NCBI RefSeq assembly: GCF_024713975.1
Contig: NC_091102.1
Location: 18,191,501-18,255,500, forward strand
Direction of reading: 5' to 3'
DNA length: 64,000 bases
DNA from: Paralichthys olivaceus
Taxonomy: Eukaryota > Chordata > Actinopteri > Pleuronectiformes > Paralichthyidae
Of the stretch, positions 16,956-60,609 are shown in pieces. The translations under genes and the position numbers were made by a program. Under the pieces are notes generated by a model. It was not told where the DNA came from. It worked only from the letters and a program-made list of their open reading frames with translations, and did not search any database. How positions within the stretch are numbered: position 1 is the stretch's first letter; the number at the start of each line of letters is the position of its first letter.

Positions 16956-17203
16956 TACTTTTGGTGCAACAAGCTCTCCATAGATGACCTCTGGTATTAC
17001 CTTGGTATTTTGGTAAACAGCTGTGCGTGCGGATAGATGCTTAGTGATGAAAGGGTTTCCAGACCACTGATTGGTTGGTTTTAATTCCCAGTTTGTCGAT
17101 ACTGTCCTCAGACAGGATACTAAGTGAGATGAGGAGACAGACCTTGTGTGTTAGTCAGGGAGGTATACTACAAAGGGAGGAAAGTAAAGTTTTCTTTCTA
17201 CTC
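16956..17203 (+). promoter_or_regulatory. Flank A of OR4 with conserved motif
   Basis: First of seven copies of flank A, beginning TTTTGGTGCAACAAGCTCTC. The motif CCACTGATTGGTTGG is at 17064-17078, 140 bp before the ATG, with TTTTAATTCCC following. An in-frame upstream ATG (17075) would add 43 residues; I treat that stretch as 5' UTR because flank-B genes cannot encode it. Confidence 0.5.
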
Positions 17204-18148
17204 ATGATGGATAATGTCTCTGTGATAACAATATTCTACCTTTCAGGTTTAAATGACAAAATGAGCCACAGGTTTATTCTCTTCTTTCTCAGTTTGTTGT
17301 GTTACTGTGTCATTTTGCTGGTAAATATAACTCTTATTGTGACCATCATCTTGGATAAAAACCTCCATGAACCAATGTATATTCTGCTGTGTGCATTTTG
17401 CATGAATTCACTTTATGGAACAACAGGTTTCTTCCCCAAATTTCTGTGGGATCTGCTCTCTCCTGTTCATGTCATCTCTTATTCTGGATGTTTTCTTCAG
17501 GCTCAGGTACTGTACTCATTTGCAGCCAGTGAACTCTCTTTTCTTGCAGTGATGGCATATGACAGATATGTGGCTATATGTCGCCCACTGCAGTATAACT
17601 CTGTCATGTCAAAGCAAAGACTCATAAAGTTACTGTGTTTCTCCTGGTTTATACCTTTCTGCATTATAGGCTCAAATATTTGTCTGACATCCAGACTGAA
17701 GTTATGCAGCCCGTATATTGCCAGACTCTTCTGTGTGAATTGGATCATTGTTGCACTTGCTTGTTTCCCAGCTGAAACTATTATTAACAACATAGTTGCA
17801 TATATTTCAATAATCATTTATGTATTTCATGGTGTATTTATAGTTTGGTCCTACATATATCTCATTAGAACATGTGTAAATTCTAAAGAAAACAGGGCAA
17901 AGTTCATGCAAACATGTGTGCCACATTTACTCTCCTTGATCACTTTTCTTTTCACAATACTTTTTGATATGATAAGTATACGTTTTGGTTCAAAAAACTT
18001 ACCTCAACCCTTTAAAAACTTTTTTGCAATAGAATTTCTTGTCATACCTCCAATCATGAATCCTCTCATTTATGGTTTCAAATTGACCAAAATTCGAAAC
18101 AGACTTCGCGGAATTGTTTTTTTTAAAACCAGTCTTGGTGTACATTAA
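17204..18148 (+). CDS. Olfactory receptor OR4
   Basis: Intact 314-residue odorant GPCR, first member of the large tandem subfamily. Start chosen at MMDNVS; N4-V-S is a glycosylation site. Other marks are VN (40-41), LHEPMY (54-59), C96 at the top of TM3, MAYDRYVAIC (117-126), loop-2 cysteines 168, 177 and 187, KFMQTC (233-238), and NPLIYG (286-291). Variable sites: TM3 AQVLYSFAASE, TM4 FIPFCIIGS, TM5 IINNIVAYISIIIYVF, TM6 ILFDMISIRFGSKN. The tail ends KTSLGVH, the type linked to 3' flank d1. Expected to act in olfactory neurons; ligand unknown. Confidence 0.94.
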   Translation: MMDNVSVITIFYLSGLNDKMSHRFILFFLSLLCYCVILLVNITLIVTIILDKNLHEPMYILLCAFCMNSLYGTTGFFPKFLWDLLSPVHVISYSGCFLQAQVLYSFAASELSFLAVMAYDRYVAICRPLQYNSVMSKQRLIKLLCFSWFIPFCIIGSNICLTSRLKLCSPYIARLFCVNWIIVALACFPAETIINNIVAYISIIIYVFHGVFIVWSYIYLIRTCVNSKENRAKFMQTCVPHLLSLITFLFTILFDMISIRFGSKNLPQPFKNFFAIEFLVIPPIMNPLIYGFKLTKIRNRLRGIVFFKTSLGVH

Positions 18149-20175
18149 GGAAATTTAAAACCATGTTTGCAATGCACATACTTTTAATATGCACTGCTAG
18201 ACCAGCTGTTATTTGTAAGTTAGTTACATATCTAACTTTTTATTTTAAATTAAAATTGGTATTGATGTGTGTAGAATATTGTTTATGCTCAAGGTTTAGG
18301 GTGATTAGTCCTCTGCCTCTTTTTATTTAGTACTATTATTAAATCATTTTGTATTACCATTTTGTGTATGTCTACTCCCTTGATTCACATTCATTTAAAT
18401 ATTAATTCAAATGTACTGTTGTTGTTTTTTAAGAAATGATGTGCAAATTTCATAGTATAAGTCATAAGGAAACTATTTTTTTAAGTTGGTATTATGATAT
18501 GTCTAATAAAACAAGACTTGTGAAAGGTGAAAGATAAGAGTAGCCAATGTTCAACATTTTCATTTAACACAGAAGCACCCAGTGAACATTTCTGCTGTAA
18601 ACTTCCATGGGAAAAAAAAACATAAACATACATACTATCAAATTAACTGCAATAGTTTATTCCAACATTTTGATTGTGCCAAAAAGCAGCATTCTTGAGT
18701 ATGTCCTGGCCTTCACCACAATACATTCAACTACTATAGTACAAGTATTCAGGCCTAGTATACATTAAACCAAATGGCAATAAAAGATGTAATAATATCT
18801 GTTATTTTGGGTGGCTGGGATTGGTATTAAGATTAAAACTTTACATGTTTTTATTTTACATGAAATATGAAGTTGTAATCAGACTTATTGTCAGCACAAG
18901 GAACTGTGTGATATAATTCTAATCATACGATTCCTCTGACAAACCCAAAAGTAGAATTTTGTTTCCACCATAGGCAATTTGCTATACATTTTTTCAACCC
19001 TATTATAAATTATAATCAGTATATTAGATTGTTTTTATTCCCCACAATTATTATTCCCTGAGAATTAACAGGCTGATTTCAATAAATAATTTGAAAGCCT
19101 GATTAAGTGAAATTTGTTATTTTAATGCAGCTTATTATTTTCACTGTTCACTGTTCTATTCACCTAAACTATTGTGATTGTTATCGAAAACCAGGTTGAT
19201 GTTAATGTTATTACCTTTTAATGATCAATATAATCAAAGTAATCTGAGAAATCAGTTAAATAACACACTTGCTGCCTCTTTTATTACATCCTATAACATT
19301 ATAAATATTCTGTGTAAAGGACAGAATACATTCATGGTGAAGATCAATTCACTTTATTTTGACTTTTTTGGCATTAGAGTCAAAATTAAGTCAACATAAA
19401 CGTGCCATACGTTGTTGATCAGGAAATCAAATGCTTCCACAATCATTAGGTAGGCAAAAGGATAAAGATGCATATAAACAACAGCAACTGGGTCATCCCT
19501 GCTCTTTTGGTTCTAACAGCACACTATATCAAAGCTGACTTTGTTTGTTCTCATTATATAAGAAAATAAAATCAACTTAGATGTTACCGAATAAAAAGGA
19601 ACATATATAAAGGGGCATTCAGGTACGATTCAAAATGTTGTTTGGAACACAGGAACAGACCAACACCATTTCCCTGCAGCTTGACACTTTGGCCCCCTCT
19701 GTTAAATCACATGGAATAAATCTTGGACTCTGTTTTGGAGTTGATTTAAGACTGAAGATTGGCAAACATATTAATCAGATACTATAATTACAATATTTAC
19801 TGCTCTGCATAATTTCCAAGCTCAAATAAATAATCTTTTAATTCTTCTTCTGCCAAAATGGGGAAACAATTTCCTACTTTCATATCCTCCCATCCTTAAT
19901 CACTGCAATTCTTTGGGAAGCACTCGTTCTTGGTAATCTCAACTCGAATTAGGAATAAATGTGGCTGCAAGAATAGAAAAGAGGTGGCACACAACTCCCA
20001 TTCTTGACTTCAGCGTCATACACATATAATGTTGTTTCTAAAGGAGAAATGGCATAAAAATAAACCTCTGTCTGAAGTTGGGTTCAAAATTCAAAATTCA
20101 AATATTAAGAGGTTTTAATACTGGGCATGAATTGTTCAGGTATGACTGGGTTGTCAAATATAAAAAATATATAAC
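18149..20175 (+). repeat. 3' flank block d1, copy 1
   Basis: AT-rich block repeated at 33795-35715 and 41875-43793, always after a gene with the LGVH tail and always before a flank-B gene. Small frames in it (for example 19178-19399) are conserved only because the whole block was duplicated. It carries a LINE relic (19640-20080). No host gene recognised. Confidence 0.85.
19640..20080 (+). mobile_element. LINE relic (RT C-terminal region) inside d1, copy 1
   Basis: Broken frames read LDTLAPSVKSHGINLGLCF around 19680-19740, like the LGPLSxxVKxxxxNLGVIFD region of fish L2-like LINEs. They are followed by LKIGKHINQI, then LNHCNSLG and NVAARI..HTTPIL remnants of RLDYCNSL..NAAAR..HITPVL. It has many stops and is clearly old, since all three d1 copies carry it in the same place. 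Confidence 0.65.
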
Positions 20176-20425
20176 ATGGGGGTGAATCTCCAGGTGCTTT
20201 CAGGAATTACTTTGTTTAGTATCCAGTGGTGCTTATACACATTAATGCTCAATGATGAAAGCACTTCCAGACCACTGATTGGTTGGTTTTAATTCCCAGC
20301 TCATGCACTGCTGACTTCAGACAAGATACTAATAACAGTACGATGAGGGGATGAGAGTGTTATTCATGAAGGTAGACTGGACAGAAAACAGATAAAATAA
20401 AATATATCATTAGAAGCTTCTACTC
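20176..20425 (+). promoter_or_regulatory. Flank B of OR5 with conserved motif
   Basis: First of three copies of flank B. It shares the CCACTGATTGGTTGG motif (20272-20286) with flank A but differs around it. An in-frame TAG at 20411-20413 shows that translation must begin at MMDNVS in flank-B genes. Confidence 0.55.
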
Positions 20426-21400
20426 ATGATGGATAATGTCTCTGTGATAACAATATTCTACCTTTCAGGTTTAAATGACAAAATGAGCCACAGGTTTATT
20501 CTCTTCTTTCTCAGTTTGTTGTGTTACTGTGTCATTTTGCTGGTAAATATAACTCTTATTGTGACCATCATCTCGGATAAAAACCTCCATGAACCAATGT
20601 ATATTCTGCTGTGTGCATTTTGCATGAATTCACTTTATGGAACAACAGGTTTCTTCCCCAAATTTCTGTGGGATCTGCTCTCTCCTGTTCATGTCATCTC
20701 TTATTCTGGATGTTTTCTACAGGCTTTAGTAATGTACTCATTTGCCTGTGGTGACCTCTCTTTTCTTGCAGTGATGGCATATGACAGATATGTGGCTATA
20801 TGTCGACCACTGCAGTATAACTCTGTCATGTCAAAGCAAAGACTCATCAAGTTAGTGTGTTTCTCCTGGTTTATACCTTTCTGCATTATGGGCACAAATA
20901 TTTGTCTGACATCCAGACTGAAGTTATGCAGCCCGTATATTGCCAGACTCTTCTGTGTGAATTGGATCATTGTTACACTTGCTTGTTTCCCAGCTGAAAC
21001 TATGGTAAACAGTATAGTTGCATATATTACAATATTATTTTATGTATCTCATGGTGTATTTATAGTTTGGTCCTACATATATCTCATTAAAACATGTGTA
21101 AATTCTAAAGAAAACAGGGCAAAGTTCATGCAAACATGTGTGCCACATTTACTCTCCTTGATCACTTTTCTTTTCACTCTACTTGTTGATGTTATGAATA
21201 TGCGTTTTAGTTCAAAACAAATACCTCTACCTCTAAAAAACTTTGTTGCAATAGAATTTCTTGTCATACCTCCAATCATGAATCCTCTCATTTATGGTTT
21301 CAAATTGACCAAAATTAGAAACAGACTTAGCAAAATGTTTTACTTAAGTAAACTGTTAAGTTTTGGTGTACATTACAGAAACACAAAACCCTGTTTGTAA
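20426..21400 (+). CDS. Olfactory receptor OR5
   Basis: Intact 324-residue odorant GPCR. The start at MMDNVS is fixed by an in-frame stop 15 bp upstream. Hallmarks at the same residues as OR4: N4 glycosylation site, LHEPMY 54-59, DRY 120-122, loop-2 cysteines 168/177/187, NPLIYG 286-291. Variable sites: residue 50 is S where the others have L, TM3 ALVMYSFACGD, TM4 FIPFCIMGT, TM5 MVNSIVAYITILFYVS, TM6 LLVDVMNMRFSSKQ. The tail is longer (SKMFYLSK to KPCL), the type linked to 3' flank d2. Flank B upstream. Closest relatives are OR9 and OR14. Confidence 0.94.
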   Translation: MMDNVSVITIFYLSGLNDKMSHRFILFFLSLLCYCVILLVNITLIVTIISDKNLHEPMYILLCAFCMNSLYGTTGFFPKFLWDLLSPVHVISYSGCFLQALVMYSFACGDLSFLAVMAYDRYVAICRPLQYNSVMSKQRLIKLVCFSWFIPFCIMGTNICLTSRLKLCSPYIARLFCVNWIIVTLACFPAETMVNSIVAYITILFYVSHGVFIVWSYIYLIKTCVNSKENRAKFMQTCVPHLLSLITFLFTLLVDVMNMRFSSKQIPLPLKNFVAIEFLVIPPIMNPLIYGFKLTKIRNRLSKMFYLSKLLSFGVHYRNTKPCL

Positions 21401-23087
21401 TTGAATACTTTAAATATGCACTGCTGAACCAGCTGTTATTTTGAAGTTAGTTACATATTGAATTTTTTTTCAGTTAAAATTGGTATTGATGTGTGTAAAA
21501 TATTCTTTATGCTCAAGGTTTAGGGTGATGAGTCCTGTGCCTCTTTTTATTATATATATATTTTGTACTGTATTACCATTTTGTGTTTGATTCCCATTCA
21601 TTTAAATATCTAGTCAGATGTAATATTGTTCTTTGTTGATGAATTATGTGCACATTTCATAAATTTAGTTATAAGGAAACTGATCTGTTAGTTGGTATTA
21701 AGATATCTTTGTATGAAAAAAAAAAACATTGAGAAAAACAACACCTACTAAAGGAGAGAGAGAAAAAAGTCAATGGCCAACCGTTTCATTTAACACAGAG
21801 GTACCTGGTAAACATAGAAACATACATACCATCAAATTCATTGTAATAGTTTATTCCAAACATACACACAGATTTCAATAAACAATACTATTGGTCATCA
21901 ATTGCCACAGTGGCGCCCAATGTCGGGCTCCACGCAGCCAGAGACGAGGTCCTGCAGGCGGAGATGGCGTTGGTGCGAATGGCAGAGGGTACCATGTACC
22001 AGGAGCATGCAGCGGAGAACAGACGGCGGCTGTAAGCTCTCCAGAGGCAGGCAGAGAGCTGCACAATGCTGGTGGAAGGTCAGGCCGGATGGCTACCTGG
22101 CTCAGAGAGCATCTCCACCTGTACCAGAGGAATAATCAGCGCATTCGAGGGCTGTTAGCTGATTGATCCTCTGGAACAAAAGGAAGAGCCCGGCTGAGCT
22201 GTAAAGCAAGCCACCTGAAAACGTTATGTGACGGACAATTAAAGTTTGAGTTCTGAATTTATCGTCGATTGCCACAGTTTGCTTTGATGAATGTCTTTTT
22301 AGAAGAACATTATTTTATCAAACACTTTTTGTTTATCGAATGCTCTTTACACTAAGTGCTTCTTTTTTACTTGCTACCTAAACTAATGAAAAACATAATG
22401 TGAATTATGTTCATCTGATGGCCTTGTAAAATGTTATATGACAGGAATAAATGCATTTTTGAAAGTATGATTTTGGACTTCAGTGAAAATCAAAAGTAAA
22501 ATCAATCACTTTTATTCAAATATGCAAAAGGGAAATGTAAAAACTGCTTTTGACTTAAAATTATTAATAGCATTAGTTTTAATCTGTTATTCACATTTAT
22601 ACATATGACAGATTGTTTTAGGAAAACATCAGGAGTGCAAACAAACAAGTATTAATCTAGAGCTGGTTTTATTCCCAATCACTGTCTAAGCATCTTCATT
22701 GCCAGCAGTGTTTTACAAAGTCTCATCATCATGATTCTTCTGATGGAACCATGCACAACTTTGTCTTCATCTCAGGCAGCTTCCTTTCAAATGATCCCTT
22801 TAACATGTTGCAATAAAAATATTTGACTTTTGTTCATTCTCCATGTTGATTATTACCAGAAATTAAAAAAGGGTTGTATAAATAAGGCAGGAGACCAGCT
22901 TTCACCTCCTGTGAAACTGTTGAGAATCCTCACAGTAAAACTTTCATTTCACTGAGTCATTGTATGAGTCGTGCATTCGGGTCCAGTTGCTGCTTCAACT
23001 GTCACACAGTAGGAAGTAGAATGCCATGGAAGCAGCCCTATTAATTGGGTCATTTGGATATGAGGGAGACCTCATATCTATTTCATG
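21401..23087 (+). repeat. 3' flank block d2, copy 1
   Basis: Block repeated after psi-OR7, OR9 and OR14 (28910, 36941, 54888). It carries an LTR-element remnant in its middle. Its ends align with parts of d1, d3 and d4, so all 3' flanks look like diverged versions of one ancestor. GC-rich frames at 21875-22166 come from the LTR remnant and are not a host gene. Confidence 0.85.
21901..22277 (+). mobile_element. LTR-retroelement remnant, copy 1 (fossil)
   Basis: GC-rich island in AT-rich DNA. It opens with ATTGCCACAG then TGGCGCCCAATGTCGGG, like an LTR end plus a primer-binding site, and closes with the same GATTGCCACAG word. A gag-like coiled-coil stretch may follow the primer site. It is broken and has no pol. 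Age: older than the d2 duplications, since all four d2 copies carry it. The four copies differ in length. Confidence 0.45.
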
Positions 23088-23142
23088 AACTATTATTAAC
23101 AACGTAGTTGCATTTATTTCAATATTCATTTATGTATCTCAT
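23088..23142 (+). pseudogene. OR relic, TM5 piece, copy 1
   Basis: About 55 bp matching OR TM5 coding sequence (ACTATTATTAACAACGTAGT, translating as TIINNVVAFISIFIYVSH). It stops exactly where cassette M begins. The same relic precedes M at 30660, 38712 and 56660. Confidence 0.75.
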
Positions 23143-25035
23143 GTTTTACCCTTTTACATATCTGTGTCTGTCACGAGTTAGAAGTGTCAACAACCCCTCT
23201 GCTGGGTTCACTTGCTCATACCCTGCTGTGTTGAAAGTCTGCAGAAAATCCAGAGGCTCTCACTCGGACATTTGCACTCACACTGCGGAGGATTCCCAGA
23301 GTTCATTGCATGTCTGAAAGCAGCTAATGGCTCCTTTCAGAGGAGCTGATCACAGGAGGTTGGGCAATTTGAACCAAGGATATTAGGTGATAGGAGTTGA
23401 CAGTGACATAATTGTTGACAGTGTTGAAAAGAAGTTAAAGCTGAGAGACACGATAACCACTTTTAAGTCTAAAGTCTGGACCCACAATGGTTTTGACAAC
23501 ATCGATGGGTCAAACAAAATCCATAAGAATACACTACATGTAGTACCTCTGTGGTGAAAGTAAGGCACCAGCAACAACACAAAAAAACCCACCTGAATGA
23601 CAAGGGACAGTGCAGCTTCTATACTGGTCTCTAATTTGGTGTTTTAGGCCAATGCTGCATTGCAAAGCTGTGTGCAGCGACTCGCTTGCAGTATCGCACA
23701 CTCGTGTAATTATCCATAAAGTTTTTACCATCCATGCAGACAGCCAAACCTGATAGTTTCACCTGCAGTTGTGTAGGCACACCTAAGTGGCATGCTATGT
23801 ACTGTAGTTCCCTCTCTTACACAAGAACTTGTCTTAACACTTTCGTCTGACTATCTGTCACTCTGAATCTGTTGCACACGATGCACCATTGCTGCCACCA
23901 TACATTGACAAATTTCAGTGGGAAATGAGGAGAAATGGAATTTAAAAAATGATGGATCTACCCATTTATTCTCACCTGCTCCAAAATTGAACAGGTTCTT
24001 CTTTGGGTCATGTCACACCCCACCGCAAACCTTCATGGGAATAGGTTGAGTAGTTTTTACATCATCCTGCTAAGTAACAAACAGACACAGATGAAAACAT
24101 AACCTCCTTGGCAGAGACAATAAACCTATGGCCTTCGTCAATCCTGGATTAATAATGAGTTTAGAGAAAGGAGGAGAGCAAGCAGATGGAGGGATCATAG
24201 GTGGAAGCCAGAAAAATTACAGCTCTTATTGCAAACACTTTCTCAATTTCAATCAGGACACATTTATAGAGAAAACTAATAAGAATGGGTAATTGTGAAT
24301 AGGGGAATAGTCTTTGGTTGGTGTCATGCTGTCATGCACTTGCCCTCCTCCCTCCTCTGTGTTTTTGTGGGAGTTAATGTTGACTGAATGAACAATAATT
24401 GGACTGGAATGCTTGGTATATGTGAGTGTGTGATTGGTATGACATCGGCACCTACGCCCTGCACCACCATGAAAGAAACATCACACACTGCAGAACGCTG
24501 CAGCCAATGGCTCTGGATCAGGAGGAAACATCCCAACTGGGCCCCAACATGCTAGGGACATGCACCCAGGTCTGTTAAACCTGTGATGGGCCTGCCTTAG
24601 AAGAGTCTCGTGACTTGATGACACTAAGATGCACAACTGAAGACATGTCCCTCACATCACATCATTACTAACATCCGCTAACATCAACTGGTGGTTGGTG
24701 TTAATCAGTGTAGTAGATCAAAGGATATTCTCCATCTTGTGCTATGTTCTAGAAAGTGACAGCGTTTAGTTTAAAATGGCATAGAGGTAAAAGGTCCGAT
24801 CTAGTGAGCGGGCCACATGTCTTTCATATTACTGTCATACAAACCAGTGGACAGATTTACCTTTAGCCTCAGCGTACCCTCAAGTTCTGACTGTATCATT
24901 GATTACAAGGCCAAAACACTTGATGACTCTGAGGTGCACAACTAAATTTATGTTCATAACAGCCGCTGGTGGCCGATAACACCTGCTAACATCTACTGGT
25001 CACTTTCTTGTCCAATATTCCAATAAAATATTTCA
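23143..25035 (+). repeat. Cassette M, copy 1
   Basis: A 1.9-kb block found six times, each directly upstream of a flank-A gene. It starts TTTTACCCTTTTACATATCT and runs into flank A. It contains a reversed MITE-2 end (23160-23325), a 70-residue antisense frame kept in all copies (24324-24536) and two diverged copies of an ACTTGATGAC..CACAACT word at about 24615 and 24919. No recognisable protein. It could be an enhancer-bearing spacer, or passive DNA carried by tandem duplication. Confidence 0.85.
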
Positions 25036-25285
25036 ACTTCTTTTGGTGCAACAAGCTCTCCATAGATGACCTCTGGTATTACCTTGGTAATTTGGTAAAC
25101 AGCTGTGCGTGCGGATAGATGCTTAGTGATGAAAGGGTTTCCATACCACTGATTGGTTGGTTTTAATTCCCAGTTTGTCGATACTGTCCTCAGACAAGAT
25201 ACTAAGTGAGATGAGGAGACAGACCTTGTGTGTTAGTCAGGGAGGTATACTACAAAGGGAGGAAAGTACAGTTTTCTTTCTACTC
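25036..25285 (+). promoter_or_regulatory. Flank A of OR6 with conserved motif
   Basis: Copy of flank A; motif CCACTGATTGGTTGG at 25146-25160, 140 bp before the ATG. Directly follows cassette M. Confidence 0.5.
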
Positions 25286-26218
25286 ATGATGGATAACGTC
25301 TCTGTGATAACAATATTCTACCTTTCAGGTTTAAATGAGAAAATGAGCCACAGGTTTATTCTCTTCTTTCTCAGTTTGTTGTGTTACTGTGTCATTTTGC
25401 TGGTAAATATAACTCTTATTGTGACCATCATCTTGGATAAAAACCTCCATGAACCAATGTATATTCTGCTGTGTGCATTTTGCATGAATGGACTTTATGG
25501 AACAACAGGTTTCTTCCCCAAATTTCTGTGGGATCTGCTCTCTCCTGTTCATGTCATCTCTTATTCTGGATGTTTTCTTCAGGCTCAGGTACTGTACTCA
25601 TTTGCAGCCAGTGACCTCTCTTTTCTTACAGTAATGGCATATGACAGATATGTGGCTATATGTCGACCACTGCAGTATCACTCTGTCATGTCAAAGCAAA
25701 GACTCATAAAGTTACTGTGTTTCTCCTGGTTCACACCTTTCTGCATTGTAGGCTCAAATATTTGTCTGACATCCAGACTGAAGTTATGCAGCCCGTATAT
25801 TGCCAGACTCTTCTGTGTGAATTGGATCATTGTTGCACTTGCTTGTTTCCCAGCTGAAACTATTATTAACAACATAGTTGCATATATTTCAATAATCATT
25901 CATATATTTCATAGTGTATTTATAGTTTGGTCCTACATATTTCTCATTAAAACATGTGTAAATTCTATAGAAAACAGGGCAAAGTTCATGCAAACATGTG
26001 TGCCACATTTACTCTCCTTGATCACTTTTCTTTTCACTATACTTTTTGACTTTGTTAATATCAGGTTTGAATCAACATATTTATCTCAACCCCTGAAAAA
26101 CTTTATTTCAATGGAATTTCTTATCATACCTCCCATTATGAATCCTCTCATTTATGGTTTCAAATTGACCAAAATTCGAACGAGATTACAGGATGTTTTT
26201 ACTTTTAAAACCAGTTAA
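25286..26218 (+). CDS. Olfactory receptor OR6
   Basis: Intact 310-residue odorant GPCR. Start taken at MMDNVS; an in-frame ATG 129 bp upstream lies in flank A. Hallmarks as in OR4. Differences: T at residue 115 before MAYDRY (others have A), CMNG at 66-69, TM3 AQVLYSFAASD, TM4 FTPFCIVGS, TM5 IINNIVAYISIIIHIFHS, TM6 ILFDFVNIRFESTYLSQPL. The tail is short, ending LQDVFTFKTS, the type linked to 3' flank d3. OR12 and OR15 share the TM6-to-tail region. Confidence 0.94.
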   Translation: MMDNVSVITIFYLSGLNEKMSHRFILFFLSLLCYCVILLVNITLIVTIILDKNLHEPMYILLCAFCMNGLYGTTGFFPKFLWDLLSPVHVISYSGCFLQAQVLYSFAASDLSFLTVMAYDRYVAICRPLQYHSVMSKQRLIKLLCFSWFTPFCIVGSNICLTSRLKLCSPYIARLFCVNWIIVALACFPAETIINNIVAYISIIIHIFHSVFIVWSYIFLIKTCVNSIENRAKFMQTCVPHLLSLITFLFTILFDFVNIRFESTYLSQPLKNFISMEFLIIPPIMNPLIYGFKLTKIRTRLQDVFTFKTS

Positions 26219-28179: not shown

Positions 28180-28909
28180 GGATCTGCTCTCTCCTGTTCA
28201 TCTCATCTCTTATTCTGGATGTCTTGTTCAGGCTTTAGTAATGTACTCTTACGTCTGCAGTGAACTCTCTTTTCTTGCAGTGATGGCATATGACAGATAT
28301 GTGGCTATATGTCGACCACTGCAGTATCACTCTGTCATGTCAAAGCAAAGACTCATAAAGTTAGTGTGTTTCTCCTGGTCCACACCTTTCTGCATTATAG
28401 GCACAAATATTTGTCTGACATCCAGACTGAAGTTATGCAGCCCGTATATTGCCAGACTCTTCTGTGTGAATTGGATCATTGTTACACTTGCTTGTTTCCC
28501 AGCTGAAACTATGGCGAACAGTATAGTTGCATATATTACAATATTACTTTATGTATCTCTTGGTGTATTTATAGTTTGGTCCTACATATTTCTCATTAAA
28601 ACATGTGTCAATTCTATAGAAAACAGGGCAAAGTTCATGCAAACATGTGTGCCACATTTACTCTCCTTGATCACTTTTCTTTTCACTCTACTTGTTGATG
28701 TTATGAATATGCGTTTTAGTTCAAAACAAATACCTCTACCTCTAAAAAACTTTGTTGCAATAGAATTTCTTGTCATACCTCCAATCATGAATCCTCTCAT
28801 TTATGGTTTCAAATTGACCAAAATTAGAAACAAACTTAGCAAAAAAGTTTACCTAAGTAAACTGTTAAGTTTTGGTGTACATTACAGAAACACAAAACCC
28901 TGTTTGTAA
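28180..28909 (+). pseudogene. psi-OR7, 5'-truncated olfactory receptor
   Basis: Homology starts at the codon for D83 (GATCTGCTCTCTCCTG) and stays open to the normal end with the KPCL tail. N-terminus, TM1 and TM2 are missing, with no flank A or B upstream. An ATG at 28145 lies in unrelated flank DNA. The retained part has MAYDRYVAIC, loop-2 cysteines and NPLIYG, TM3 ALVMYSYVCSE, TM4 STPFCIIGT. A five-helix product would not be a working receptor. Loss of the first 82 codons is the only defect I see, so the truncation may be recent or its sequence kept fresh by conversion. Confidence 0.9.
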
Positions 28910-51249: not shown

Positions 51250-51615
51250 GGATCTGCTCTCTCCTGTTCATCTCATCTCTTATTCTGGATGTCTTGTTCA
51301 GGCTTTAGTAATGTACTCTTACGTCTGCAGTGAACTCTCTTTTCTTGCAGTGATGGCATATGACAGATATGTGGCTATATGTCGACCACTGCAGTATCAC
51401 TCTGTCATGTCAAAGCAAAGACTTATCAAGTTAGTGTGTTTCTCCTGGTTCACACCTTTCTGCATTATGGGCACAAATATGTGTCTGAAAAGATTGAAGT
51501 TATGCAGCCCGTATATTGCCAGACTTGTCTGTGTGAATTGGACCATCGTTGTGCTTGTATGTCTCCTAGCTGAAACTTTAGTTAACAGCATAATTGCATA
51601 TATCACAATACTCAT
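51250..51615 (+). pseudogene. psi-OR13, olfactory receptor truncated at both ends
   Basis: Starts at the same D83 breakpoint as psi-OR7 and is identical to it through TM3 (ALVMYSYVCSE). From loop 2 it diverges: MCLKRLKLCSP lacks one codon, then LVCVNWTIVVLVCLLAETLVNSII. Homology ends in TM5 at ACAATACTCATTTTT and the frame closes shortly after (51631). TM1, TM2, TM6 and TM7 are absent. The 3' half is more diverged than any intact gene, which suggests a mosaic or older lineage. Not functional. Confidence 0.88.
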
Positions 51616-51754
51616 TTTTCAATTAAATTAAATATAAATTTCATGGCTGAGATCACATGTTTTTGTTTACAGCTCTTATCAACGCAAACTCTCTTGAAAT
51701 CTTCGTCTTCCACTTGTGAGGCACCACTTTTGCATCCAGAGATATTTGTTTCGT
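51616..51754 (+). other. Spacer between psi-OR13 and cassette M
   Basis: About 140 bp sharing TTTCATGGCTGAGATCACAT with the end of d4. Absent at the d2-M junctions. Confidence 0.6.
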
Positions 51755-53665
51755 TTTACCCTTTTACATATCTGTGTCTGTCACGAGTTAGAAGTGTCAA
51801 CAACCCCTCTGCTGGCCTCACTTGCTCATACCCTGCTGTGTTGAAAGTCTGCAGAAAATCCAGAGGCTCTCACTCTGACATTTGCACTCACACTGCACAG
51901 GATTCCCAGAGTTCATTGCATGTCTGAAAGCAGCTAATGGCTCCTTTCAGAGGAGCTGATCACAGGAGGTTGGGCAATTTGAACCAAGGATATTTGGTGA
52001 TAGGAGTTGACAGTGACATAATTGTTGACAGTGTTGAAAAGAAGTTAAAGCTGAGAGACACGATAACCACTTTTAAGTCTAAAGTCTGGACCCACAATGG
52101 TTTTGACAACATCGATGGGACAAACAAAATCCATAAGACTACACTACATGTAGTACCTCTGTGGTGAAAGTAAGGCACCAGCAACAACAGGAAAAAACCC
52201 ACCTGAATGACAAGGGACAGTGCAGCTTCTATACTGGTCTCTAATTTGGTGTTTTAGGCCAATGCTGCATTACAAAGCTGTGTGCAGCGACTCGCTTGCA
52301 GTATCGCACACTCGTGTAATTATCCATAAAGTTTTTACCATCCATGCAGACAGCCAAACCTGATAGTTTCACCTGCAGTTGTGTAGGCACACCTAAGTGG
52401 CATGCTATGTACTGTAGTTCCCTCTCTTACACAAGAACTTGTCTTTAACACTTTCGTCTGACTATCTGTCACTCTGAATCTGTTGCACACAATGCACCAT
52501 TGCTGCCACCATACATTGACAAATTTCAGTGGGAAATGAGGAGAAATGGAATTTAAAAAATGATGGATCTACCCATTTATTCTCACCTGCTCCAAAATTG
52601 AACAGGTTCTTCTTTGGGTCATGTCACACCCCATCGCAAACCTTCATGGGAATAGGTTGAGTAGTTTTTACATCATCCTGCTAAGTAACAAACACACACA
52701 GATGAAAACATAACCTCCTTGGCAGAGACAATAAACCTATGGCCTTCTTCAATCCTGGATTAATAATGAGTTTAGAGAAAGGAGGAGAGCAAGCAGATGG
52801 AGGGATCATAGGTGGAAGCCAGAAAAATGACAGCTCTTATCTCAAACACTTTCTCAATTTCAATCAGGACACATTTATAGAGAAAACTAATAAGAATGGG
52901 TAATTGTGAATAGGGGAATAGTCTTTGGTTGGTGTCACGGTGTCATGCACTTGCCCTCCTCCCTCCTCTGTGTTTTTGTAGGAGTTAATGTTGACTGAAT
53001 GAACAATGATTGGACTGGAATGCTTGGTATATGTGAGTGTGTGATTGGTATGACATCGGCACCTACGCCCTGCACCACCATGAAAGAAACATCACACACT
53101 GCAGAATGCTGCAGCCAATGGCTCTGGATCAGGAGGAAACATCCCAACTGGGCCCCAAGATGCTAGGGACATGCACCCAGGTCTGTTAAACCTGTGATGG
53201 GCCTACCTTAGAAGAGTCTTGTGATTAAAAGGCAGATACACTTGATGACACTTAGATACACAACTGAAGACGTGTCCCTCACATCACATCATTACTAACA
53301 TCCACTGACATCAACTGGTGGTTGGTGTTAATCAGTGTGGTAGAACAAAGGATATTCTCCATCTTGTGCTATGTTCTAGAAAGTGACAGAGTTTAGTTTA
53401 AAATGGCATAGAGGTAAAAGGTCTGATCTAGTGAGCGGGCCACGTGTCTTTCATATTACTGCCATATAAGCCAGTAGTCACATTTACCTTTAGCCTCAGC
53501 GTACCCTCAAATACGGCCTGTATCATTGATTACAAGGCCAAAACACTTGATGACTCTGAGGTGCACAACTAAATTTATGTCCCTAACATCCGCTGGTGGC
53601 CGATAACACCTGCTAACATCTACTGGTCACTTTCTTGTCCAATATTCCAATAAAATATTGCAACT
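51755..53665 (+). repeat. Cassette M, copy 5
   Basis: Fifth copy of M, before OR14, very close to copy 4. Open 76-residue frame at 51937-52167; antisense 70-residue frame at 52935-53147. Confidence 0.85.
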
Positions 53666-53912
53666 TCTTTTGGTGCAACAAGCTCTCCATAGATGACCTC
53701 TGGTATTACCTTGGTAATTTGGTAAACAGCTGTGCGTGCGAATAGATGCTTAGTGATGAAAGGGTTTCCAGACCACTGATTGGTTGGTTTTAATTCCCAG
53801 TTTGTTGATACTGTCCTCAGACAAGATACTAAGTGAGATGAGGAGACAGACCTTGTGTGTTAGTCAGGGAGGTATACTACAAAGGGAGGAAAGTACAGTT
53901 TTCTTTCTACTC
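53666..53912 (+). promoter_or_regulatory. Flank A of OR14 with conserved motif
   Basis: Motif CCACTGATTGGTTGG at 53773-53787, 140 bp before the ATG. Confidence 0.5.
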
Positions 53913-54887
53913 ATGATGGATAATGTCTCTGTGATAACAATATTCTACCTTTCAGGTTTAAATGAGAAAATGAGCCACAGGTTTATTCTCTTCTTTCTCA
54001 GTTTGTTGTGTTACTGTGTCATTTTGCTGGTAAATATAACTCTTATTGTGACCATCATCTTGGATAAGAACCTCCATGAACCAATGTATATTCTGTTGTG
54101 TGCATTTTGCATGAATGGACTTTATGGAACAACAGGTTTCTTCCCCAAATTTCTGTGGGATCTGCTCTCTCCTGTTCATGTCATCTCTTATTCTGGATGT
54201 CTTGTTCAGGCTTTAGTAATGTACTCTTACGCCTGCAGTGACCTCTCTTTTCTTGCAGTAATGGCATATGACAGATATGTGGCTATATGTCGCCCACTGC
54301 AGTATCACTCTGTCATGTCAAAGCAAAGACTCATAAAGTTAGTGTGTTTCTCCTGGTTTATACCTTTCTGCATTATAGGCACAAATATTTGTCTGACATC
54401 CAGACTGAAGTTATGCAGCCCGTATATTGCCAGACTCTTCTGTGTGAATTGGATCATTGTTACACTTGCTTGTTTCCCAGCTGAAACTATGGTGAACAGT
54501 ATAGCTGCATATATTACAATATTACTTTATGTATCTCATGGTGTATTTATAGTTTGGTCCTACATACATCTCATTAAAACATGTGTAAATTCTAAAGAAA
54601 ACAGGGCAAAGTTCATGCAAACATGTGTGCCACATTTACTCTCCTTGATCACTTTTCTTTTCACTATACTTGTTGATGTTATGAATATGCGTTTTAGTTC
54701 AAAACAAATACCTCTACCTCTAAAAAACTTTGTTGCAATAGAATTTCTTGTCATACCTCCAATCATGAATCCTCTCATTTATGGTTTCAAATTGACCAAA
54801 ATTAGAAACAGACTTAGCAAAATGTTTTACTTAAGTAAACTGTTAAGTTTTGGTGTACATTACAGAAACACAAAACCCTGTTTGTAA
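53913..54887 (+). CDS. Olfactory receptor OR14, flank A with d2-type tail
   Basis: Intact 324-residue odorant GPCR, start at MMDNVS. Hallmarks as in OR5. It is the only complete gene combining flank A with the KPCL tail and 3' flank d2, so it is a recombinant of block types. Variable sites: CMNG at 66-69 (shared with OR6), TM3 GCLVQALVMYSYACSD, TM4 FIPFCIIGT, TM5 MVNSIAAYITILLYVSHG, YIHLIKTC, TM6 ILVDVMNMRFSSKQ. Confidence 0.94.
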   Translation: MMDNVSVITIFYLSGLNEKMSHRFILFFLSLLCYCVILLVNITLIVTIILDKNLHEPMYILLCAFCMNGLYGTTGFFPKFLWDLLSPVHVISYSGCLVQALVMYSYACSDLSFLAVMAYDRYVAICRPLQYHSVMSKQRLIKLVCFSWFIPFCIIGTNICLTSRLKLCSPYIARLFCVNWIIVTLACFPAETMVNSIAAYITILLYVSHGVFIVWSYIHLIKTCVNSKENRAKFMQTCVPHLLSLITFLFTILVDVMNMRFSSKQIPLPLKNFVAIEFLVIPPIMNPLIYGFKLTKIRNRLSKMFYLSKLLSFGVHYRNTKPCL

Positions 54888-56659
54888 TTGAATACTTTAA
54901 ATATGCACTGCTGAACCAGCTGTTATTTTGAAGTTAGTTACATATTGAATTTTTTTTCAGTTAAAATTGGTATTGATGTGTGTAAAATATTCTTTATGCT
55001 CAAGGTTTAGGGTGATGAGTCCTGTGCCTCTTTTTATTATATATATATTTTGCACTGTATTACCATTTTGTGTTTGATTCCCATTCATTTAAATATCTAG
55101 TCAGATGTAATATTGTTCGTTGTTGATGAATTATGTGCACATTTCATAAATTTAGTTATAAGGAAACTGATCTGTTAGTTGGTATTAAGATATCTTTGTA
55201 TGAAAAAATAAAACATTGAGAAAAACAACACCTACTAAAGGAGAGAGAGAAAAAAGTCAATGGCCAACCTTTTCATTTAACACAGAGGTACCTGGTAAAC
55301 ATAGAAACATACATACCATCAAATTCATTGTAATAGTTTATTCCAAACATACACACAGATTTCAATAAACAATACCATTGGTCATCAATTGCCACAGTGG
55401 CGCCCAATGTCGGGTTCCACACAGCCAGAGACGAGGTCCTGCAGGCGGAGATGGCGTTGGTGCGAATGGCAGAGGGTACCATGTACCAGGAGCATGCAGC
55501 GGAGAACAGACGGCGGCTGTAAGCTCTCCAGAGGCAGGCAGAGAGCTGCACAATGTGGGTGGAAGGTCAGGCCGGATGGCTACTTGGCTCAGAGAGCATC
55601 TCCACCTGTACCAGAGGAATAATCAGCGCATTCGAGGGCTGTTAGCTGATTGATCCTCTGGAACAAAAGGCAGAGCCCGGCTGAGCTGTAAAGCAAGCAA
55701 CCTGAAAACGTTATGTGACGGACAATTAAAGTTTGAGTTCTGAATTTATGTTTGCTCGTGTCATTAATAAAGAATAAAGATGCTGAAAAGTGACTGGATT
55801 GTCTCTGGCTGTGATTGGGACATACCCGTTGCATCGTCGATTGCCACAGTTTGCTTTGATGAATGTCTTTTTAGAAGAACATTATTTTATCAAACACTTT
55901 TTGTTTATCGAATGCTCTTTACACTAAGTGCTTCTTTTTTACTTGCTACCTAAACTAATGAAAAACATAATGGGAATTATGTTCATCTGATGGCCTTGTA
56001 AAATGTTATATGACAGGAATAAATGCATTTTTGAAAGTATGATTTTGGACTTCAGTGAAAATCAAAAGTAAAATCAATCACTTTTATTCAAATATGCAAA
56101 AGGGAAATGCAAAAACTGCTTTTGACTTAAAATTATTAATAGCATTAGTTTTAATCTGTTATTCACATTTATACATATGACAGATTGTTTTAGGAAAACA
56201 TCAGGAGTGCAAACAAACAAGTATTAATCTAGAGCTGGTTTTATTCCCAATCACTGTCTAAGCATCTTCATTGCCAGCAGTGTTTTACAAAGTCTCATCA
56301 TCATGATTCTTCTGATGGAACCATGCACAACTTTGTCTTCATCTCAGGCAGCTTCCTTTCAAATGATCCCTTTAACATGTTGTAATAAAAATATTTGACT
56401 TTTGTTCATTCTCCATGTTGATTATTCCCAGAAATTAAAAAAGGGTTGTATAAATAAGGCAGGAGACCAGCTTTCACCTCCTGTGAAACTGTTGAGAATC
56501 CTCACAGTAAAACTTTCATTTCACTGAGTCATTGTATGAGTCGTGCATTCGGGTCAAGTTGCTGCTTCAACTGTCACACAGTAGGAAGTAGAATGCCATG
56601 GAAGCAGCCCTATTAATTGGGTCATTTGGATATGAGGGAGACCGCATATCTATTTCATG
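54888..56659 (+). repeat. 3' flank block d2, copy 4
   Basis: Fourth d2 copy, after OR14, with the LTR remnant at 55388-55850. Confidence 0.85.
55388..55850 (+). mobile_element. LTR-retroelement remnant, copy 4 (fossil)
   Basis: Same island as at 29410. Broken, no pol. Confidence 0.45.
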
Positions 56660-56714
56660 AACTATTATTAACAACGTAGTTGCATTTATTTCAATATTCA
56701 TTTATGTATCTCAT
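56660..56714 (+). pseudogene. OR relic, TM5 piece, copy 4
   Basis: Same 55-bp relic as at 23088, abutting cassette M. Confidence 0.75.
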
Positions 56715-58637
56715 GTTTTACCCTTTTACATATCTGTGTCTGTCACGAGTTAGAAGTGTCAACAACCCCTCTGCTGGCCTCACTTGCTCATACCCTGCTG
56801 TGTTGAAAGTCTGCAGAAAATCCAGAGGCTCTCACTCAGACATTTGCACTCACACTGCGGAGGATTCCCAGAGTTCATTGCATGTCTGAAAGCAGCTAAT
56901 GGCTCCTTTCAGAGGAGCTGATCACAGGAGGTTGGGCAATTTGAACCAAGGATATTTGGTGATAGGAGTTGACAGTGACATTATTGTTGACAGTGTTGAA
57001 AAGAAGTTAAAGCTGAGAGACACGATAACCACTTTTAAGTCTAAAGTCTGGACCCACAATGGTTTTGACAACATCGATGGGACAAACAAAATCCATAAGA
57101 CTACACTACATGCAGTACCTCTGTGGTGAAAGTAAGGCACCAGCAACAACAGGAAAAAACCCACCTGAATGACAAGGGACAGTGCAGCTTCTATACTGGT
57201 CTCTAATTTGGTGTTTTAGGCCAATGCTGCATTACAAAGCTGTGTGCAGCGCCATTTGCTTGATGGAGCGCACACTGATGTAATTATCCATAAAGTTTTT
57301 ACCATCCATGCAGACAGCCAAACCTGATAGTTTCACCTGCAGTTGTGTAGGCACACCTAAGTGGCATGCTATGTACTGTAGTTCCCTCTCTTACACAAGA
57401 ACTTGTCTTTAACACTTTCGTCTGACTATCTGTCACTCTGAATCTGTTGCACACGATGCACCATTGCTGCCACCATACATTGACACATTTCAGTGGGAAA
57501 TGAGGAGAAATGGAATTTAAAAAATGATGGATCTACCCATTTATTCTCACCTGCTCCAAAATTGAACGGGTTCTTCTTTGGGTCATGTCACACCCCATCG
57601 CAAACCTTCATGGGAATAGGTTGAGTAGTTTTTACATCATCCTGCTAAGTAACAAACAGACACAGATGAAAACATAACCTCCTTGGCAGAGACAATAAAC
57701 CTATGGCCTTCGTCAATCCTGGATTAATAACAATGATTTTAGAGAAAGGAGGAGAGCAAGCAGATGGAGGGATCATAGGTGGAAGCCAGAAAAATTACAG
57801 CTCTTATTGCAAACACTTTCTCAATTTCAATCAGGACACATTTATAGAGAAAACTAATAAGAATGGGTAATTGTGAATAGGGGAATAGTCTTTGGTTGGT
57901 GTCACGGTGTCATGCACTTGCCCTCCTCCCTCCTCTGTGTTTTTGTGGGAGTTAATGTTGACTGAATGAACAATGATTGGACTGGAATGCTTGGTATATG
58001 TGAGTGTGTGATTGGTATGACATCGGCACCTACGCCCTGCACCACCATGAAAGAAACATCACACACTGCAGAATGCTGCAGCCAATGGCTCTGGATCAGG
58101 AGGAAACATCCCAACTGGGCCCCAAGATGCTAGGGACATGCACCCAGGTCTGTTAAACCTGTGATGGGCCTGCCTTAGAAGAGTCTTGTGATTAAAAGGC
58201 AGATACACTTGATGACACTTAGATACACAACTGAAGACGTGTCCCTCACATCACATCATTACTAACATCCGCTAACATCAACTGGTGGTTGGTGTTAATC
58301 AGTGTGGTAGAACATACAAAGGATATTCTCCATCTTGTGCTTTGTTCTAAAATGGGACAGCGTTTAGTTTAAAATGGCATAGAGGTAAGAGGTCTGATCT
58401 AGTGAGCGGGCCACGTGTCTTTCATATTACTGCCATATAAGCCAGTAGTCACATTTACCTTTAGCCTCAGCGTACCCTCAAATACGGCCTGTATCATTGA
58501 TTACAAGGCCAAAACGCTCGATGACTCTGAGGTGCACAACTAAATTTATGTCCCTAACATCCGCTGGTGGCCAATAACACCTGCTAACATCTACTGGTCA
58601 CCTTCTTGTCCAATATTCCAATAAAATATTGCAACTT
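56715..58637 (+). repeat. Cassette M, copy 6
   Basis: Sixth copy of M, before OR15. Open 76-residue frame at 56899-57129; antisense 70-residue frame at 57902-58114. A short patch near 57250-57270 differs from all other copies. Confidence 0.85.
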
Positions 58638-58884
58638 CTTTTGGTGCAACAAGCTCTCCATAGATGACCTCTGGTATTACCTTGGTAATTTGGTAAACAG
58701 CTGTGCGTGCGAATAGATGCTTAGTGATGAAAGGGTTTCCAGACCACTGATTGGTTGGTTTTAATTCCCAGTTGTTGCACTACTGACTTCAGACAAGATA
58801 CTTAGTGAGATGAGGAGACAGACCTTGTGTGTTAGTCAGGGAGGTATACTACAAAGGGAGGAAAGTAAAGTTTTCTTTCTACTC
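58638..58884 (+). promoter_or_regulatory. Flank A of OR15, A/B mosaic, with conserved motif
   Basis: Motif CCACTGATTGGTTGG at 58744-58758. Same B-like patch after the motif as in OR12, so the two 5' flanks share a conversion event or ancestor. Confidence 0.5.
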
Positions 58885-59817
58885 ATGATGGATAATGTCT
58901 CTGTGATAACAATATTCTACCTTTCAGGTTTAAATGAGAAAATGAGCGAGAGGTTTATTCTCTTCTTTCTCAGTTTGTTGTGTTACTGTGTCATTTTGCT
59001 GGTAAATATAACTCTTATTGTGACCATCACCTTGGATAAAAACCTCCATGAACCAATGTATATTCTGTTGTGTGCATTTTGCATGAATTCTCTTTATGGA
59101 ACAACAGGTTTCTTCCCCAAATTTCTGTGGGATCTGCTCTCTCCTGTTCATGTCATCTCTTATTCTGGATGTTTTCTTCAGGTTCAGGTACTGTACTCAT
59201 TTGCAGCCAGTGACCTCTCTTTTCTTGCAGTGATGGCATATGACAGATATGTGGCTATATGTCGACCACTGCAGTATAACTCTGTCATGTCAAAGCAAAG
59301 ACTCATAAAGTTACTGTGTTTCTCCTGGTCCACACCTTTCTGCGTTATGGGCATAAATATTTGTCTGACATCCAGACTGAAGTTATGCAGCCCGTATATT
59401 GCCAGACTCTTCTGTATGAATTGGTTCATTGTTGCACTTGCTTGTTTCCCAGCTGAAACTATGGTTAACACCATAGTTGCATATATTTCAATATTATTTT
59501 ATGTATCTCATGGTGTATTTATAGTTTGGTCCTACATATTTCTCATTAGAACATGTGTAAATTCTATAGAAAACAGGGCAAAGTTCATGCAAACATGTGT
59601 GCCACATTTACTCTCCTTGATCACTTTTCTTTTCACTATACTTTTTGACTTTATTAATATCAGGTTTGAATCAACATATTTATCTCAACCCCTGAAAAAC
59701 TTTATTTCAATGGAATTTCTTATCATACCTCCCATTATGAATCCTCTCATTTATGGTTTCAAATTGACCAAAATTCGAAAGAGATTACAGGATGTTTTTA
59801 CTTTTAAAACCAGTTAA
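58885..59817 (+). CDS. Olfactory receptor OR15
   Basis: Intact 310-residue odorant GPCR, start at MMDNVS. Hallmarks as in OR4. Sites: SERF at 21-24, T49, V100 in TM3 (QVQVLYSFAASD), TM4 STPFCVMGI, MNWF at 178-181, TM5 MVNTIVAYISILFYVSHG, IFLIRTC, TM6 ILFDFINIRFESTYLSQPL, tail LQDVFTFKTS. TM5 is like OR8 while TM6 to tail is like OR6 and OR12, a clear mosaic. Last complete gene of the array. Confidence 0.94.
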   Translation: MMDNVSVITIFYLSGLNEKMSERFILFFLSLLCYCVILLVNITLIVTITLDKNLHEPMYILLCAFCMNSLYGTTGFFPKFLWDLLSPVHVISYSGCFLQVQVLYSFAASDLSFLAVMAYDRYVAICRPLQYNSVMSKQRLIKLLCFSWSTPFCVMGINICLTSRLKLCSPYIARLFCMNWFIVALACFPAETMVNTIVAYISILFYVSHGVFIVWSYIFLIRTCVNSIENRAKFMQTCVPHLLSLITFLFTILFDFINIRFESTYLSQPLKNFISMEFLIIPPIMNPLIYGFKLTKIRKRLQDVFTFKTS

Positions 59818-60506
59818 CGTGTGTGCTGTTTCACCTGTTGATGGCTTTTGTTACACATTATTTTCTTATAGAGTAACAACCGAGGGTTTTGCAGTTTCAT
59901 CAAACATTAGTTTGGTATGCGTTGCTGAATGTCTATTCAGAAGAATGTTTGAACTTTACAAAGTTTGTGTTGCATGTTTTTGTATATACGTGTTTATGTG
60001 TGTAGGGTGATTAATCATGTGCCTCTTTTAAAATTGTGACCACTCTAAATTAAACATTGAATGGTAGCATTTCCTTTTTGTATTTACATGATTTCCACTC
60101 ATCTGATGGTCGAGTCAGTTGCACAGTGATTCATTGTTGGAAACTTCGGTGCACATTCAGTAAAAGGATGTCATTAGATATATTCAATTCAAATTCAAAA
60201 CAACTTTCTCCGTCACTGGAGGGCAATTGTACGGCACACAGAGCATGTCAAGACAAGGGAAAACAGGAAGGAAACAATGATGACATGAGTGCAAAGGAGT
60301 TGAACTGCCCTGGGAACAAAGGTTCTGCCCTTCTCCTCTGAGTCCTGCAGCCAGGGCAGCGAAGTCGGAGTCCTGAGGGGAGCCATTCAAACGCTGGGAA
60401 GAGAGCATATTTTCAATGTTGTGTAAATTTATTAAAGCCAGAATAATGTTACCATAAACATGTATCAAACAGTTTTGAAAATTATAAATCATGTATTTCC
60501 ACTATG
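59818..60506 (+). repeat. 3' flank block d3, copy 3 (short)
   Basis: Matches d3 to about the CATGTATTTCCACTATGA word, then jumps to the d3 end next to an OR relic. About 1.2 kb, including the MITE, is absent relative to copies 1 and 2. Confidence 0.8.
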
Positions 60507-60609
60507 AATTTTTTTTTTATCATATTTTGTGACTCATGTTGTGATTTATCTAGAGACTAGGGATCTGCTTTCTCCTGTTCATCTCATCTCTTACTCTGGA
60601 TGTCCTGTT
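60507..60609 (+). pseudogene. OR relic with the psi-OR7/psi-OR13 breakpoint
   Basis: Carries the same flank word AGAGACTAGGGATCTGCT and about 50 bp of OR coding sequence up to TCTGGATGTCCTGTT (SGCPV), then ends. It is the third instance of the D83 breakpoint. Confidence 0.8.

Follow-up and report, generated by a model that had tools for sequence, protein, structure and literature searches.

A tandem row of near-identical, fish-type odorant receptor genes in Paralichthys olivaceus (NC_091102.1) has very probably been reordered by unequal crossing-over between its coding exons, with the 5' flank inherited separately from the 3' flank and receptor tail. The window, meaning the whole 64-kb stretch of DNA that was analysed, shows recurring block combinations, linkage spacer by spacer, a history that no single tree fits, recombination within the coding sequence (CDS) and a coding start homogenised across unlike flanks. 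A sequence-only reading of the window had proposed that unequal crossing-over or conversion in near-identical exons made new combinations of flank and receptor. This proposal is supported, with both flank exchanges and internal patches traced.

Results

The 10 full-length genes of the row, OR4-OR6, OR8-OR12, OR14 and OR15, were compared with each other. In a profile search, OR10 matched Pfam PF13853 (7tm_4) at 1e-35 (124 bits, cut-off 27), and all 10 genes exceeded this cut-off. The best PDB match was consOR4 (1.6e-38). Each gene is an intact single coding exon, and none of the 10 has an in-frame stop in its first 876 bases.

The sequence-only reading described two 5' flanks (A and B) and four 3' flanks (d1-d4) in varying combinations, and a table of flank identities confirms this for 9 of the 10 genes. 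All of them lie on the plus strand. A is paired with d1 in OR8 (32850-33794) and OR10 (40930-41874), with d3 in OR6 (25286-26218), OR12 (48357-49289) and OR15 (58885-59817), and with d2 in OR14 (53913-54887). B is paired with d2 in OR5 (20426-21400) and OR9 (35966-36940), and with d4 in OR11 (44044-44976). The remaining gene, OR4 (17204-18148), is only partly A-d1: it has a short A-like 5' flank and its own proximal 3' flank, followed by d1. A third 5' flank, C, precedes three truncated exons, also on the plus strand. These are OR7 (28160-28909), which lacks its 5' end and is followed by d2; OR13 (51249-51610), a broken fragment with two in-frame stops; and a 50-base exon remnant (60560-60609), where the last 50 bases of C are present at 88% identity. 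Each of the three exons meets C at coding position ~245.

The flank types are well separated. Over -1800 to -260, the A flanks of OR6, OR8, OR10, OR12, OR14 and OR15 are 96.6-99.1% identical (15 pairs) and the B flanks 98.8-99.2% (3 pairs), whereas these A flanks agree with B at only 40-46% in forced alignment and are thus unrelated. Over the last 250 bases, all seven A-type genes are 64-69% identical to B. Same-type 3' flanks agree at 98.3-100% over +1 to +300 (7 pairs, OR4 excluded); d1 and d2 are relatives, and d3 and d4 likewise have related coding tails. The first 300 bases of the CDS, whatever the flank, are 96-100% identical across the 10 genes. This includes all 21 A-B pairs (96.7-99.7%) despite their unrelated 5' flanks, and at the start codon mean A-B identity steps up to 97%, having been 66% before it. 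Exact tracts common to A- and B-type exons reach 287 bases (OR4/OR9). A 28-base element (25146-25173, plus strand; other copies at 17064, 20272, 32710, 35812, 40790, 43890, 48216, 53773 and 58744) occurs unchanged in each of the 10 genes, ~140-155 bases upstream of the ATG, and is a candidate promoter element.

The statement that the switch always lies within the coding exon was too strong. OR4 shares A over the last ~255 bases only (from 16949), and its 3' flank is ~80% like d1 over the first ~200 bases and 98% identical further out. These two edges (16949 and ~18358) and the left edge of the A block all fall outside the CDS. The A block (23144-25285; other copies start at 30716, 38769, 46193, 51754 and 56716) has a sharp left edge ~2.1 kb before the exon in three left contexts. 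We considered the block as a mobile element and rejected this, since none of the 35 partial genome matches listed starts at the block edge. In the search of the fish's own genome, with 40 of 1243 first-look candidates scored, the first 1257 bases of the block gave at least 41 matches; this is a lower bound, which makes the result weak for the edge itself. Among the matches listed, six were full-length, all in this array, and the 35 partial ones mostly covered query positions ~485-738 or ~803-986, while a single one covered 90-182.

The inherited unit is the spacer from one exon to the next, not the flank alone. The 3' flank d1 leads to B in 3 of 3 cases, d2 to A in 4 of 4 and d3 to C in 3 of 3, counting the d1 of OR4 and the third C as partial copies. 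The d1-B spacers lie at 18149-20425, 33795-35965 and 41875-44043; 18358-22262 matches 33886-37802 at 97.3%, and 18358-21364 matches 41966-44981 at 95.3%. The d2-A spacers lie at 21401-25285, 28910-32849, 36941-40929 and 54888-58884. The d3-C spacer at 26219-28178 has a second copy at 49290-51248 (99.0%) and a third, shortened one at 59818-60559, in which 690 bases at the start remain, at 99.4% identity, and, as noted, the last 50. Two spacers, d4-A (44977-48356) and OR13 tail-A (51611-53912), are present in a single copy. The exon is the hinge, since it is the sole long near-identical sequence common to unlike spacers.

Of the single products, OR14 (A-d2) is the most clear-cut, with the structure expected if neighbouring A-d3 and C-d2 genes (OR6 and OR7, for instance) had fused. 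It is OR6-like from -250 to ~288, then OR10/OR7-like, and like d2 genes (OR5) from ~424, so that its 5' part with flank and its 3' part with flank come from different paralogues. The same is true of OR11, which is B-d4 against B-d2 in OR5 and OR9; donor painting is noisy in the 3' flank of OR11, which has no relative. Long identical tracts occur between genes, and the joint of OR14 is bracketed rather than fixed, its parents having since changed. Its distal 5' flank is nearest to OR12 (99.1%), not OR6 (97.2%); OR14 is therefore more than one simple OR6-OR7 fusion.

One tree does not serve for the 5' flank, CDS and 3' flank. In AU tests among five segments, every segment rejected all four trees built from the others (20/20, p 0.03 or lower), and a single-tree history was rejected on these grounds. 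Coding bases 1-300 did not reject the whole-CDS tree (p 0.09), and neither did the whole CDS reject that of bases 301-624 (p 0.08). The sequence-only reading had also predicted breakpoints inside the CDS, and tests on the CDS only (PHI, a simulation control and a one-breakpoint test) did find recombination there. The PHI value was reached in 0 of 2000 permutations, and in 6 of 2000 with third positions alone. We counted 39 donor switches against a mean of 22 in single-tree simulations, of which 1 in 100 reached the observed count. The proportion of incompatible site pairs was 0.50, compared with a maximum of 0.357 among the same 100 scored simulations, which carried a fitted, very strong rate heterogeneity. 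In the one-breakpoint test, 9 of 720 triples survived correction for 32,324 split tests and marked six genes as recombinants (OR5, OR6, OR8, OR12, OR14 and OR15); no significant single breakpoint was found in the other four (OR4, OR9, OR10 and OR11).

Synonymous divergence climbs along the exon from 2.8% to 8.2% to 15.8% (all 45 pairs), so amino-acid constraint alone does not account for the identical start. Variation in the CDS goes with the 3' class at bases 501-620 and 761-885 (0/400 permutations each) and only weakly with the 5' type, with a lowest value of 18/400 (bases 401-500), which places the joint between +1 and roughly 760. Between genes with the same flanks (five overlapping pairs), 101 of 2300 mid-exon sites are different (4.4%); the corresponding counts are 198 of 8855 in the 5' flanks (2.2%) and 31 of 4115 in the 3' flanks (0.75%). 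The mid-exon excess is weak at fourfold sites alone (11/291). For 80 of the 101 differences, both alleles are present in other genes of the array. Short tracts, synonymous sites included, are common to loci with unlike flanks, as in gene conversion or concerted evolution. In the A flank of the six A genes, 577 of 1081 site pairs were incompatible, and recombination may therefore not be peculiar to the exon; PHI was not significant there (356/1000) or in coding bases 1-300 of the same genes (950/1000).

For comparison, we sampled stretches from four further receptor arrays in the genome (C15 at 0.34 Mb, C15 at 6.4 Mb, C10 at 15.6 Mb and C11 at 20.66 Mb). These are likewise tandem rows of near-identical receptors but, unlike the present one, mostly keep their flank pairs together. 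With flank types clustered at one threshold and the truncated OR7 and OR13 left out, the four gave 43 concordant and 7 discordant gene pairs, compared with 5 and 18 here, where one discordant pair is the downstream pair 18262040/18264032 and two come from the partial d1 of OR4. All 3 discordant pairs at C15 0.34 Mb, a set that omits five genes beyond 409944, involve the first gene of the array, and a single gene from another CDS family takes part in all 4 at C15 6.4 Mb. For C11, the sample covered 20 kb and 5 genes. PHI was applied to C15 0.34 Mb and C10 15.6 Mb, since neither of the remaining two has a CDS family with five or more members. Exon mosaicism was also present at C15 0.34 Mb, whose flanks are unshuffled (PHI 0/500).

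Discussion

We propose that near-identical exons misalign and that unequal crossing-over then duplicates, deletes and re-orders the spacers. As a result, the 5' flank (A, B or C) would be passed on separately from the 3' flank and receptor tail (d1-d4). The flank exchanges would arise by meiotic unequal crossing-over (non-allelic homologous recombination, NAHR), and the short internal patches without flank exchange by non-crossover gene conversion. If the 5' blocks carry the promoters, new combinations of regulator, receptor and tail would be formed.

It is quite unlikely that the flanks changed through template switching during replication, or through stalled forks at short homology, in place of meiotic unequal crossing-over. 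Abrupt edges with no homology across them, namely the junction of C with exon position ~245 in OR7 and OR13 and the left edge of the A block in its three contexts, would suit such a process, but the joints of A and B with the d flanks fall in long stretches of nearly identical exon, where homologous exchange would place them. Crossing-over and template switching are not distinguished by the present data. It is very unlikely that the block order is an assembly artefact in which unlike copies were joined inside a near-identical exon. The exact tracts of up to 287 bases between A and B exons are where short-read assemblies misjoin. However, the window contains no N despite exact repeats of up to 670 bases, 31 of them at least 250 bases long, and it belongs to a 588 Mb assembly in 25 contigs; both points speak against a simple artefact of short reads. 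Same-type spacers also differ by ~1-3%, each with its own variants, the mosaic switches in the middle of the exon are flanked by differences that lie close together, and the sampled stretches of the four other arrays in this assembly mostly keep their flank types together.

Selection was weighed in two forms. One is that no recombination took place, purifying selection having kept the exons alike while the flanks were replaced or diverged. The receptor exons are indeed constrained (pooled pN/pS 0.63-0.74 in three segments), but this account can hardly be right: homogenisation at the 5' end extends to synonymous sites, which vary along the exon, and noncoding flanks of one type mostly equal or exceed the exons in similarity. 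Pure exon conservation is refuted by the synonymous-site pattern together with the AU tests and the simulation control. The other is that the mid-exon excess reflects positive selection on the ligand-binding core instead of imported patches, which we consider unlikely. OR6 and OR15 differ mid-exon by 20 nonsynonymous and 2 synonymous changes, and the weak fourfold excess points the same way; against this, pooled pN/pS is below 1 in every segment, and most of the differing sites have both alleles elsewhere in the array. Positive selection and imported patches may both be at work mid-exon.

In olfactory neurons, receptor choice depends on the DNA adjoining the gene. Exon-centred recombination could rewire receptor regulation. 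Near-identical receptors behind unlike 5' blocks, and unlike cores behind one block, form a natural experiment that could separate promoter from receptor effects. Single-tree analyses of such genes mislead. A far more speculative and rather improbable reading is that the array is a long-lived combinatorial assembler, in which the first third of the exon, kept by conversion, serves as a handle by which three independent modules (regulatory block, ligand-binding core at ~300-760 and cytoplasmic tail) are re-dealt, with block-specific expression and many combinations segregating.

Regulated exchange of DNA cassettes, of the VSG or mating-type kind, uses a dedicated expression site or silent cassettes; here, each of the 10 intact genes retains a 5' flank with the 28-base element. 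In our literature search, no publication reported an exchange of flank blocks among the OR genes of a fish array, which is weak evidence of absence as most subscription journals were outside the search. In humans, according to one report, tandem receptor genes were fused within the coding exon by NAHR (OR8U8/OR8U9 to OR8U1, and OR51A2/OR51A4), over a 119-base identical interval, and the second case combined the coding region of one gene with the upstream DNA of the other (PMC2570968). Those fusions, as described there, are single deletion alleles, whereas here several exchanges built a standing array that has three types of 5' flank and four of 3' flank. Mammalian OR clusters carry mosaic receptors made by conversion and recombination (Sharon et al. 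1999; Glusman et al. 1996; cited in the review PMC1995454). They are alike in this respect, but in the present array the flanks are exchanged too, with the spacer as the inherited unit. The gamma-c OR genes of Cory's shearwater, a recently expanded clade, have a GARD breakpoint inside the CDS (PMC6969042) and resemble this array in that respect, the comparison covering the coding sequence. Recombination inside a receptor CDS is a mechanism known from single human examples, and here it is found many times in one row.

Flank types and spacers of the array

The receptor genes in the window (C10:18191501-18255500 of a 588-Mb genome assembly in 25 contigs) are all olfactory receptors on the + strand, and their sequences suggest a teleost. 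One subfamily has ten full-length members, OR4-6, 8-12, 14 and 15, numbered along the window; three of its relatives are broken, namely OR7, OR13 and a remnant of 50 bases. Upstream of this array lie OR3 and a tandem match, OR1/OR2 (93.6%). Two further tandem pairs downstream (98.0% and 99.3%) have flank types that do not occur in the array; these pairs, at 63146-64000 and L009:1-9345, are recent, and their full genes resemble the shuffled ones at about 86-89%. A reverse-transcriptase fragment at 10363-10980 (PF00078, 7.4e-16) is probably LINE-like.

Flanks were compared over seven segments in all 45 pairs of the ten full-length genes. The 5' flank A, about 2 kb long, is common to six genes and B to three; the two are unrelated except in their last 250 bases. 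OR4 shares no more of A than its final ~255 bases. The 3' flanks sort into four types, d1-d4, and the 3' block also sets the C-terminal tail of the receptor. The sequence-only reading had held that A and B are shuffled against d1-d4, with the switch always inside the coding exon; this comparison bore out its combinations for nine of the ten genes, OR4 being a partial case. The first 300 bases of the CDS are 96.3-99.7% identical over the 45 pairs and 96.7-99.7% in A-B pairs (n=21), and mean A-B identity rises from 66% in the last 20 bases 5' of the start codon to 97% over coding bases 1-40.

Read as exon-to-exon spacers, the row has a simple order. Type d1 is followed by B in 3/3 spacers (d1 of OR4 is partial), d2 by A in 4/4 and d3 by C, another 5' flank type, in 3/3, with the middle lost in the third copy; d4 then A, and the OR13 tail then A, occur in one spacer each. 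Thus, a 3' flank moves jointly with the 5' flank of the next gene and not with that of its own gene, as expected if exchange takes place inside exons. At 97.1%, the longest of the tandem matches pairs 28179-36904 with 36210-44981 and has both ends in exons or at most 5 bases from one. Other tandem matches start instead at the A-block edge, e.g. 23144-28543 against 46193-51610. The A blocks start at the same base (23144, 30716, 38769, 46193, 51754 and 56716) and have three kinds of sequence to their left, of which one is an exon remnant of ~40-50 bases; possibly, the blocks were homogenised up to a deletion edge. Within the A block, ~23628-23881 and ~23946-24129 are pieces of dispersed repeats. 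They have numerous matches at 68-86%, most of which lie on other contigs.

A 28-base element, CCACTGATTGGTTGGTTTTAATTCCCAG, was found ~140-155 bases before the start codon, at 17064, 20272, 25146, 32710, 35812, 40790, 43890, 48216, 53773 and 58744. It is identical in 10/10 genes, whereas the sequence around it is ~65% alike between A and B, and no further site occurs in the window at up to 7 mismatches. This shared element and their position suggest A and B as putative promoters. The TAAT and TCCCAG parts of the element resemble homeodomain and O/E sites and are candidates for such sites. Directly 3' of the element, OR12 (48244-48268) and OR15 (58772-58796) have a short B-like patch, the rest of the flank being A.

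Recombination within the coding exon

PHI for the CDS alone was 0.338 against 0.512, lower than all 2000 permutations; with third positions alone, the observed value was reached in 6/2000. In AU tests, the trees of five segments rejected each other in 20/20 cross tests; CDS bases 1-300 did not reject the whole-CDS tree (p 0.09), nor the whole CDS that of bases 301-624 (p 0.08). A single-tree simulation used the fitted rate heterogeneity, whose extreme level favours the null. Its mean was 22 donor switches (39 observed; reached in 1/100 simulations), and its incompatible site pairs peaked at 0.357 (0.50 observed). A one-breakpoint test left 9/720 triples after heavy correction, with six recombinant genes; no triple survived for OR4, OR9, OR10 or OR11.

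CDS variation is linked to 3' class at 501-620 and 761-885 (0/400 permutations each; 621-760 gave 18/400). Its link to 5' type is weak at most (18/400 at 401-500, at least 25/400 elsewhere). Among the six A genes, CDS 761-885 is perfectly tree-like (0/253 incompatible pairs) and 301-760 is not (276/741; PHI 0/1000).

From -250 to 288, 6 positions separate OR14 from OR6, and beyond 288 many do; from 424 to 1000, 6 positions separate it from OR5, a d2 gene. Between 288 and 424, OR10 and OR7 are closest. We infer that adjacent A-d3 and C-d2 genes fused, an arrangement that persists today as OR6-OR7. More exchange would have followed, since the distal 5' flank is nearer to OR12 (99.1%) than to OR6 (97.2%).

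Probable crossing-over and conversion, and the assembly

Flank exchange requires crossing-over or an equivalent. Conversion would account for exon patches without flank exchange, as in the same-flank pairs. In these five overlapping pairs, differences affect 4.4% of sites in the mid-exon, 2.2% in the 5' flank and 0.75% in the 3' flank, and for 80/101 of the mid-exon differences, both alleles are present elsewhere in the array. At fourfold sites alone the excess is weak (11/291), and selection may contribute to it. The exon is the only long part common to unlike spacers. It is probably not the sole recombining part, since incompatible sites also abound in the A flank when A genes are compared (577/1081 pairs); A-flank PHI among these genes was not significant (356/1000), a pattern expected from very short tracts or recurrent mutation. 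An assembly artefact seems unlikely: the stretch has no N, exact repeats of up to 670 bases are resolved, and copies have variants of their own.

As a control, stretches of four other receptor arrays of the genome (41 genes) were read by the same script. Among pairs sharing a flank type, 43 were concordant on both sides and 7 discordant, against 5 and 18 in the shuffled array and its neighbours (17 genes), where the discordant pairs include one downstream pair and two from OR4. Flank shuffling therefore makes this array stand out among those compared. Coding PHI was run on two of the four, those at C11 20.66 Mb and C15 6.4 Mb being too small. It was significant at C15 0.34 Mb (0/500), so mosaic exons recur in the genome, and not significant at C10 15.6 Mb (359/500). 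The C15 0.34 Mb array (C15:348118-372951) repeats a two-gene unit of ~7 kb with flanks in register, the first gene apart; the significant coding PHI is that of its CDS family, despite the registered flanks.

Comparison with known systems

In humans, one study describes fusion by NAHR within an OR exon and the joining of one gene's coding region to another's upstream DNA (PMC2570968). Mosaic receptors arising through conversion and recombination are presented as a general principle in a review (PMC1995454). The array belongs among known exon-fused and mosaic OR genes, as a rich example; it is unusual in how many flank modules it has and in the clean rule that its spacers follow.
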